From: a virus
DNA: 64,000 bases
Strand: one strand, 5' to 3'
IMG/VR virus record: IMGVR_UViG_3300021168_000003
Span: 1 to 64,000 of that record
Below the pieces are notes generated by a model. It saw only the letters and a list, made by a program, of their open reading frames with translations. It was not told the origin of the DNA and made no database searches. Made by a program: the position numbers and the translations under genes. Numbering within the stretch: position 1 is the stretch's first letter; the number at the start of each line of letters is the position of its first letter. This document shows positions 5,929 through 8,433 of the stretch, one piece after another.

Positions 5929-6045
5929 ATATCGGATCGCCTACGTTTCGCCGTTGACATCGCTTACGCCGTCGTCCAAATGATGTCTTAACAGAGACAC
6001 AATAAGTCTACAAGAACCTACTGGCTTAACTGATGGGACTAGGGA
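5929..6045. other. Gap before the replication operon
   Basis: This 117-bp region is AT-richer than its surroundings. A TTGACA at 5954 has no acceptable -10 box at 16-18 bp. The last bases, GGGACTAGGGAATG, are a variant of the shared start context. Confidence 0.5.
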
Positions 6046-7137
6046 ATGCCTCACCAATGGGTGTGGGCGGATGACCGCGTCGTCTCGATGGATTTCGAGA
6101 CGAGTGGCCTCCAGCCCGAATTTGCGCTGCAGTCATGGAGAATACTGTCAGGCGAGGCTTGGGCCACGTCGATGGTGTGGGTGTGGCCGCAGGATGGCCG
6201 CGTCATGAACGGCGGCGGTCTTGTGCGTGACCGGCTTCACGCCAGGGGCATGATCAACGAGTTCATCACTCACGTTCTGCACTACGACATCCGTGTCTGC
6301 GGCTGGAACCTCGCCTTCGACATCGGTGTCTTGATTGCTTACGGCGCGCCGATTGAGAAGCTGCGCCGAGTGAAGTGGCTCGATGGCTACCTGCTATGGC
6401 GTCACCTCGACGTCGAGCCTGAGTACGACGACAAGGGCCCGCGCCGGTCATACTCACTGAAGACCTACGTCCGCCAGCGATGGCCGCTCCAGGCTGGCTA
6501 CGAGGCCGATGTCAACTTCCATGATGACAGCCTAGAGGCTCGCGTCAAGCTTCATAGATACAACATTCAGGACTGTGTCTTCACCTTGATGGGCTGCAAG
6601 ACCCTTTGGAATGCGCTGACGCCAGCGCAGCAGCGCGCCGCATCGATCGAGGCCGACTGCCTTGTCCATGTGGCCGAGGCCAACGTGCGGGGCATGCTGG
6701 TGGACACCATCCTGGCCCAGGACGTGGTCATCAAGCAGAGCACCATCGCCGCCGAGAGGCTCGCCTCGCTCGCACCGTTCGGCGTCACTGAGAAGATCGT
6801 CCGGTCACCGAAGCAGCTGGCCACGCTGTTCTTCGACACGTGGGGTCTGCCGGTCCAGAAGAACACGGCCACCGGCAACCGGTCGACCGACAAAGAGGTC
6901 ATGCACGAGCTCGCATTCATCGACCCGCGGGTGAAGGAAGTGAAGGAGTACCGCGAGGCGCTCAACAATGTCACCAAGTTCGCCATGAACCCGATCGCGG
7001 CGGCGCGCTACAACGGCGACGGCCGGGCCCGGCCGCAGGCCATTGTGTTCGGGACCTACACCGGGCGCATGACCTATGCGAGCAAGCAGACGAAGAAGAA
7101 CCCCGAGGAGGCTGAGGTTGCCGACGCTTCCGACTGA
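6046..7137 (+). CDS. DNA polymerase family A, N-terminal fragment (3'-5' exonuclease and thumb)
   Basis: A 363-residue product. All three exonuclease motifs of the DnaQ type are present: SMDFET (D16, E18), WNLAFDI, and YNIQD. The C-terminal part reaches the family A motif TGRMTYASKQ (the TxR segment before motif A) and then ends with an unrelated acidic tail. The palm motifs A, B and C are in the separate gene at 7293. A normal PolA would be continuous here. The two fragments presumably assemble into a replicative polymerase. The gene heads the replication operon. Confidence 0.88.
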   Translation: MPHQWVWADDRVVSMDFETSGLQPEFALQSWRILSGEAWATSMVWVWPQDGRVMNGGGLVRDRLHARGMINEFITHVLHYDIRVCGWNLAFDIGVLIAYGAPIEKLRRVKWLDGYLLWRHLDVEPEYDDKGPRRSYSLKTYVRQRWPLQAGYEADVNFHDDSLEARVKLHRYNIQDCVFTLMGCKTLWNALTPAQQRAASIEADCLVHVAEANVRGMLVDTILAQDVVIKQSTIAAERLASLAPFGVTEKIVRSPKQLATLFFDTWGLPVQKNTATGNRSTDKEVMHELAFIDPRVKEVKEYREALNNVTKFAMNPIAAARYNGDGRARPQAIVFGTYTGRMTYASKQTKKNPEEAEVADASD

Positions 7138-7306
7138 CGATCCCTTCGACTGGGAGCTGTTCGACGAGCAGCCCTTGTCAGTGCGCAAGGTGACCTGGGA
7201 GTTCAACGTGTTCCCAGACAAGTTGGTCGAGCCGAAGGACGCCGCGCGCGCCGCGCTGCTGATGATTGAGTATTGGGAGACGAAGGTAGGCGATGGCACC
7301 CCGTAA
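7118..7306 (+). CDS. Small ORF between the two polymerase genes, 62 aa
   Basis: TTG 7118 has GAGGAG seven bases upstream. It overlaps the end of the N-terminal polymerase gene by 20 bases and the start of the C-terminal gene by 14. The product is acidic and aromatic at the start (TDDPFDWELFDEQP) with a helical C-terminus. It shows no similarity to a PolA segment, an intein or a homing endonuclease that I can see. The three genes occupy three different frames. Confidence 0.6.
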   Translation: MPTLPTDDPFDWELFDEQPLSVRKVTWEFNVFPDKLVEPKDAARAALLMIEYWETKVGDGTP

Positions 7307-8153
7307 GACCACTGACTTCCAGATCGGCTGGGCAGTACACCAGATGAAGAGCGGCCCCGACTACCGCTCGATCATCGTGGCTCCGCACGGTCACTCGATC
7401 GTGGAGTTTGACGCGGCTGGGCAGGAGTTTCGGTTCATGGCCTTGATCAGTGGCGACACCACCATGCTGCACCTTTGCAGGCCCGGCGAAGACCCGCACT
7501 CGTTCATGGGCTCGAGGGCTGACACCCGGTATGAGTACCGTGAGCTGATCAAGCGGGTGGCTGAGGAGGACAAGGAGGCCAAGCGTATCCGCAAGGGCGG
7601 CAAGGTGCTGAACCTTAGTCTCCAATATAGAACTTCCCCTAAAACATTACGTACAAGGTCACGCGTCGATCACGGCATGGACATGACGCCAGAGCAGGCG
7701 CAGCACAACTATTACGTCTACCACCGGACCTACCCCGGCGTGAAGGTTTATCACAAGACTGCGATCGAGAAGACGCAGCAGTGCGGATATGCCGAGACGT
7801 TAGCTGGCCGTCGAGTACAGGTTATAGGTGACTGGGATAGATATGGCTGGCAGCTTGGGTCTACTGCCATAAATTACCCTGTCCAGGGCACCGGCGCTTG
7901 TCAGAAATACTTGGCTATTCGTGCGCTCAGCGAATTGTACACTGAGTTGGGTGCAAGATTTATGCTGGATCTTCACGACGGTCTTTTCAGCGTTGTGCCG
8001 GATCATTACGTCAGTGAGTTCTGCGACCGTGGCAAGAGAATACTTGACAACCTCCCATATGGTTCAGCCTGGGGTTACACACCGTCCATCCCGCTGCCGT
8101 GGGACGTGAAGGTGGGGAAGAGCTGGGGCGCGCTTCATGAGGTGAAGTTGTGA
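7293..8153 (+). CDS. DNA polymerase family A, C-terminal fragment (palm/fingers)
   Basis: A 286-residue product; ATG 7293 has GAAGG upstream. Motif A is VEFDAAGQEFRFMA (catalytic Asp, with Q and E of the steric gate), motif B is KVLNLSLQYRTS, and motif C is LDLHDGLF. Motif C keeps the catalytic Asp, but the usual HDE is HDG. The QIGWAVHQMK segment would normally follow the TGR motif found in the upstream gene, so the break lies between the TGR motif and motif A. It is replication-related and acts with the 6046 gene. Confidence 0.88.
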   Translation: MAPRKTTDFQIGWAVHQMKSGPDYRSIIVAPHGHSIVEFDAAGQEFRFMALISGDTTMLHLCRPGEDPHSFMGSRADTRYEYRELIKRVAEEDKEAKRIRKGGKVLNLSLQYRTSPKTLRTRSRVDHGMDMTPEQAQHNYYVYHRTYPGVKVYHKTAIEKTQQCGYAETLAGRRVQVIGDWDRYGWQLGSTAINYPVQGTGACQKYLAIRALSELYTELGARFMLDLHDGLFSVVPDHYVSEFCDRGKRILDNLPYGSAWGYTPSIPLPWDVKVGKSWGALHEVKL

Positions 8154-8224
8154 CGACTCAGTGTCTTGACGAACCCCGGGTGACACCCGATATGAGGGCC
8201 TCCACGAACGAGGCTCGCCAATGA
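8150..8224 (+). CDS. 24-residue ORF tiled between two genes
   Basis: GTG 8150 overlaps the polymerase stop (GTGA) and its TGA overlaps the next ATG (ATGA). It exactly fills the gap and could maintain translational coupling. The product has no recognisable features. Support is positional only. Confidence 0.35.
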   Translation: MTTQCLDEPRVTPDMRASTNEARQ

Positions 8225-8433
8225 ACCCCCTTCTCACTGACGCTGGCGCGGTCCACCTGCGCTCCACCCGCTCCAACGAGCTCTACCGTGTCCTGGCCTA
8301 CGACCCGGCCACGAAGCTTGCTACGCTGAAGGGGCAGCTTGGTCAGTGTACCGAGCCGTTCGAGCGCGCGAGGCTCGAGGAACTGGGCTACGTCCGCATC
8401 GACGGACCAGTGGAAGGCATGATCGAGGTTTGA
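8221..8433 (+). CDS. Small hypothetical protein, 70 aa
   Basis: ATG 8221 is reached by four-base overlap from the upstream tiny ORF. The product appears beta-rich at first (AVHLRSTRSNELYRVLAYD) then helical. No family is recognised. Confidence 0.6.
   Translation: MNPLLTDAGAVHLRSTRSNELYRVLAYDPATKLATLKGQLGQCTEPFERARLEELGYVRIDGPVEGMIEV

Follow-up and report, generated by a model that had tools for sequence, protein, structure and literature searches.

The window, meaning the whole analyzed stretch of 64,000 nucleotides (positions 1 to 64,000 of IMG/VR virus record IMGVR_UViG_3300021168_000003), encodes its family-A DNA polymerase as two genes, designated A and C, with a small gene lying within the break. 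The features read from the sequence were as follows, and the basis of the assignments is given in parentheses.

6046..7137, + strand: gene A, 363 aa, the N-terminal part of a family-A DNA polymerase with 3'-5' exonuclease, thumb and TGR motif (PF00476 positions 30-122; PHROG 17)
7060..7089, + strand: TGR motif TGRMTYASKQ, the final segment of gene A with a conserved counterpart in unsplit relatives (sequence, alignment)
7105..7111, + strand: GAGGAGG, ribosome-binding site of the small gene (sequence)
7118..7306, + strand: orphan gene of 62 aa, TTG start and TAA stop (codon statistics)
7282..7286, + strand: GAAGG, likely ribosome-binding site of gene C (sequence)
7293..8153, + strand: gene C, 286 aa, the C-terminal polymerase part with fingers and catalytic palm (PF00476 positions 136-380; start conserved in contig L004)
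7407..7433, + strand: motif A, FDAAGQEFR, including the catalytic Asp (alignment)
7590..7631, + strand: motif B, RKGGKVLNLSLQYR (alignment)
7974..7982, + strand: motif C, HDG (alignment)

Gene A terminates in TGRMTYASKQTKKNPEEAEVADASD, soon after the TGR motif. Gene C begins with MAPRKTTDFQIGWAVHQ, ahead of motif A, and contains motif A (EFDAAGQE), motif B, and motif C (LHDG). The elements TGR, EFDAAGQE, R...GK...LQYR, and HDG were all found to be conserved in the alignment with relatives. Both genes matched the Pfam family DNA_pol_A above its curated cut-off of 34.3 bits, gene A at profile positions 30-122 (E=4.5e-10, 39.5 bits) and gene C at positions 136-380 (E=1.3e-28, 100.4 bits). The two halves are complementary on the profile and jointly span positions 30-380 of 381, from which it was deduced that nothing large is missing. 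These matches, together with the broken polymerase of L004 described below, confirmed the initial annotation, which had placed the split between TGR and motif A. A second, intact polymerase was looked for in the phage's own record, and none was found. Motif C reads HDG rather than the usual HDE in every clade member looked at.

Two further observations were made at the locus. The third-position GC (0.69) and the coding score of gene C are clearly below those of its neighbours, and this gene may represent a recombined stretch. Downstream of the polymerase, positions 8221-8433 encode a 70-aa protein that has look-alikes at the equivalent place in many relatives; it gave no PHROGs match and is possibly a conserved accessory.

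The small gene overlaps gene A by 20 nt and gene C by 14 nt. The start positions of A, the small gene, and C are 1, 2, and 0 modulo 3, and the three genes therefore lie in three frames, as had been noted initially along with the good ribosome site. The TTG at 7118 sits six bases past GAGGAGG, which constitutes a strong site, and the 62 codons form the sole stop-free frame on the + strand of the gap. Their GC content by codon position (0.61/0.33/0.88) matches that of the phage's genes, and their coding log-odds of +0.40 per codon equals that of the best neighbouring genes. The frame is thus a well-supported gene, beyond what chance would produce. Relatives of its product were sought in phages, PHROGs, Pfam, viral contigs, NCBIfam, and plasmids, and none were found. 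HNH, GIY-YIG, and LAGLIDADG domains were absent from it, there being no Pfam, PHROGs, or NCBIfam match.

The break in related polymerases

The closest relative found was the IMG/VR contig L004, with identities of 62% in A and 70% in C. The break in its polymerase falls in the same loop, A ending in TGRMTYSSKQTKRNQVDE and C starting with MATARKTTDFQTGF, compared to MAPRKTTDFQIGW in the window; the C start MA.RKTTDFQ is common to both in the alignment. The gap of L004 is occupied by a gene for a 68-aa protein with a weak match to PHROG 8389 (E=3e-6), which is unrelated to the 62-aa protein of the window. The A and C genes of L004 share one frame (frame order 1, 2, 1), and the frame order of the window is therefore not conserved. 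The pN/pS ratios were 0.51 for A and 0.36 for C, a constraint the same as that obtained in comparison with an unsplit relative. The break is best explained as inherited and common to the window and L004.

Scans of viral contigs yielded about 50 polymerases of this clade, the relatives being metagenomic contigs throughout, and most are unsplit at this place. Comparison with the unsplit members, a check suggested by the initial annotation, located the break in the TGR-to-motif A loop of variable length; from TGR to HQ the loop comprises 20 to 40 residues, mostly 23. Intein-like inserts aside, the frame is interrupted within the connector in L004, L048, L091, and L035. The gap gene of L048 encodes 58 aa with four cysteines and a weak zinc-ribbon match (E=1.8e-4), and its overlaps with A and C are ATGCCTGA and TGATG. 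For L091, the break falls immediately ahead of motif A, and a 151-aa gap gene is joined to the halves by ATGA and GTGA overlaps. No gap gene is present in L035, where the halves meet in just a GTGA overlap; this contig was deemed weak evidence for a split because one indel would rejoin the frames. The polymerase frame of L009 (4880-5722 and 5245-6849) is broken near residue 235, outside the connector, by what looks like a single indel, either an error or a mutation.

A maximum-likelihood tree of 49 polymerases placed the window and L004 as sisters (100/100), with the unsplit L005 adjoining. L035 paired with the unsplit L082 (100/99), and L048 and L091 were placed elsewhere. The tree requires at least four changes between the split and unsplit states. 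An AU test of a single split origin for the window, L004, and L048 gave p=0.056, and these three splits may therefore share one origin. The tree also contains, as sisters, two contigs showing the reverse of a split: in L061 (5001-9005, on the same contig as L040) and L071 (4995-9035), the polymerase is fused in frame with a Prim-Pol primase, PriCT-2, and an AAA ATPase in one protein of 1334-1346 aa.

Position of the break in the fold

The unsplit relative L013 was modelled with a 31-row alignment (pLDDT 92). The model resembles Taq and Klenow fragments (Z of 33.9 to 8xk9 and 33.7 to 3ktq), which predicts a Klenow-like fold for this polymerase. Mapped on the model, the break of the window corresponds to L013 residues 358-366, a loop between secondary-structure elements, and the breaks of L091 and MEP401 (see below) fall later, ahead of the motif A strand. 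A profile alignment with E. coli Pol I puts the window's break in the corresponding TGR-to-motif A segment of that enzyme. These data are best explained by a variable connector in which the fold tolerates a break.

Split polymerases in named phages

For all 13 split polymerases compared, the break lies inside the connector between TGR and motif A; some of the cases were found starting from known splits, and the count therefore demonstrates recurrence, not frequency. The OM43 phages MEP401 and MEP402 have the same connector split around a 77-aa ORF. The authors who described these phages reported in 2023 two polymerase ORFs with a small unknown ORF between them, suspected an intron, and left the arrangement without explanation (PMC10580990). 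The likeness to the window extends to the two-ORF family-A polymerase, the break between TGR and motif A, and the small intervening ORF. The break is, however, about 20 residues later, just ahead of motif A, the phage lineage is another, and the gap protein, which for MEP401 matched MEP402 only, is unrelated to that of the window. In the literature searched, chiefly non-subscription papers, MEP401 and MEP402 were the only described family-A split with a small gap ORF.

Vibrio phage ICP2 (HQ641345) has the same connector broken, and an HNH-like ORF fills the gap and overlaps both halves, as the small gene does in the window; the match of this ORF to HNH_3 was below the cut-off (E=0.008). In ICP2_2013_A_Haiti and Saratov-12 (NC_024791 and MT066160), the A stop and C start are as in ICP2, but nine bases separate them and there is no gap gene. 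These phages differ from the window in having an HNH-like ORF or nothing in the gap and in being broken after PNLQNI. Unlike that of the window, the ICP2 polymerase gene is recorded as a two-piece join.

Alcaligenes phage QDWS535 likewise has a split polymerase, the gap gene being absent. In MW202697 (L102, 3642-4613) the gap gene is R67 DHFR-like (DHFR_2, E=2.7e-22), and the downstream polymerase half of this genome seems to have neither the motif A Asp nor a start codon of the normal kind. In the complete circular genome MW202796, the A half is followed by several genes, one of them for a DNA methyltransferase, before the C half appears 3.6 kb downstream.

A phage replicase encoded by two genes is also known from family B. 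The polymerase genes of T4-like phages are split by endonucleases, and the two proteins of the split PolB of Aeromonas phage 25 copurify and are polymerase-active (PMC2988022). The gp43A/gp43B pairs of Aeromonas phages 25 and 44RR differ from the window's pair in polymerase family and break point and in having an endonuclease gene or untranslated sequence, rather than a small orphan gene, in the gap (PMC2988022). Their parts copurify and are active.

Interpretation as a probable two-subunit polymerase

The split recurs, the gap genes are not conserved and in some phages are missing, and in one genome the halves are distant from each other. Since there are cultured split phages without a gap gene, and since the halves in MW202796 are 3.6 kb apart, the halves must generally act in trans. 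The absence of a gap gene from Haiti, Saratov-12, and QDWS535 further indicates that the halves do not generally need any small protein. On the basis of this action in trans without a dedicated partner, and of the PolB precedent (PMC2988022), A and C were taken to be a two-subunit polymerase and the 62-aa protein to be a passenger. We consider it probable that A and C are the two subunits of a functional family-A polymerase broken in its connector, with the 62-aa protein riding along; the latter most likely has its own, separate function.

According to the proposed mechanism, A and C would be made separately from the overlapping genes, probably with translational coupling, and would associate noncovalently into an active, Klenow-like enzyme. 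The fold would tolerate the chain break at the variable connector that links TGR to motif A, and the gap would be open to genes of unrelated kinds. The 62-aa gene may have been placed there by insertion or replacement, like the endonuclease-like gene at the ICP2 break.

A broader proposal, to which we assign slightly less than an even chance, is that the connector is a general break-and-insert site. Independent lineages would then have made two-subunit replicases, and the gap would serve as a port through which unrelated genes (endonuclease-like, R67 DHFR-like, zinc-ribbon-like, and orphan) are swapped, some of them maybe encoding accessory subunits.

Origin of the break and alternative explanations

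How the split arose is a separate matter. A homing endonuclease gene, either free-standing or intron-borne, may have split the connector and then been lost or replaced by the small gene. Such an origin is compatible with the two-subunit polymerase, and we hold it to be a reasonable possibility, though the balance tips somewhat against it. It is supported by the comparison of ICP2 with its two sisters: the HNH-like gene is present in ICP2 and absent from the sisters with the same break, making insertion and loss of a mobile element plausible. It is also consistent with the splitting of T4-like polymerase genes by endonucleases (PMC2988022) and with the intein-like inserts found close by in L012 and L026. 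On the other hand, the HNH_3 match of the ICP2 ORF is below the cut-off, the element in ICP2 could be either the maker of the break or a later arrival, and neither the window nor L004 retains a trace of an endonuclease, intron, or intein.

The inserts in L012 and L026 lie at FGTY|TGR, in the same polymerase clade and about 10 residues upstream of the window's break, and large in-frame intein-like inserts were also seen at the motif B site in nine relatives (L045-L050, L052, L056, and L076). Their identity as inteins was judged by eye from the end blocks, the single profile match being to an intein C terminus in L050 at E=0.16, below the cut-off. In contrast to the window's break, the L012, L026, and motif B inserts keep one open frame, occupy other exact sites, and have left no trace in the window. 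No intein splicing blocks were found at the ends of genes A and C in the window, and intron searches were negative, with no Rfam intron match in 6000-8300 up to E=1. These results agree with the initial annotation that neither intein nor homing nuclease remains. Its suggestion of an old intron or intein scar was borne out in part: a mobile-element scar is plausible from the ICP2 comparison, but no intron was found, and the break was concluded not to be an intein scar because the intein-like inserts are sited about 10 residues before it and intein remnants are absent from both halves.

The same annotation had proposed that the small protein might hold the halves together. A third subunit that bridges or stabilizes them would be encoded between them, overlap them at both ends, and, by virtue of its strong ribosome site, be made in step with A and C, all of which fits the 62-aa gene. 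That site and its good codon usage mark it as an expressed gene, and it could have been recruited to the polymerase. This role is nevertheless unlikely, as the gap genes of the split relatives are unrelated to one another (68 aa, zinc-ribbon-like 58 aa, 151 aa, R67 DHFR-like, 77 aa, and HNH-like), the sister L004 has a different protein in the gap, and in several split phages the gap is empty; as a general function it is unsupported.

The frames 1, 2, and 0 with overlaps at both junctions are also what two programmed +1 frameshifts would require to join A, the small frame, and C as a single protein, as had been suggested. This was considered very improbable. The frame order is 1, 2, 1 in L004 and different again in L048, L091, and L035, every gene is provided with a separate start and, in most cases, a separate ribosome site, and the halves of MW202796 are 3.6 kb apart. 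No known slippery sequence was seen at either junction of the window.

A decaying pseudogene or an error of sequencing or assembly, for which the metagenomic nature of the record and the single-indel case of L035 could be cited, is scarcely tenable: 155 nt of coding-like sequence separates A from C, the motifs are kept and both halves are under constraint, and the same break, followed by a conserved C start, is found in an independent contig (62-70% identity), a sequencing error (at 7080-7300, as entertained initially) being excluded because L004 is broken in the same loop yet has an unrelated 68-aa gene there.

Significance

A family-A split with a small gap ORF was already on record from MEP401 and MEP402, as were the replicases of T4-like phages split with endonucleases. 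As far as the searched literature shows, the new elements comprise another break point within this connector, the further cases, the interchangeable or missing gap genes, the comparison of filled and empty breaks in ICP2 and its sisters, and the genome with distant halves.

It is unexpected for a replicative polymerase to be broken beside its active site. Repeated breaks in one connector of roughly 50 residues would mean that family-A polymerases in two pieces occur naturally, and would map a point at which a break is tolerated. The finding bears on the oddity reported in 2023 for the OM43 phages, and it suggests a better reading of the ICP2 polymerase, annotated as a two-piece join, namely a split gene whose gap may or may not house an endonuclease-like gene.
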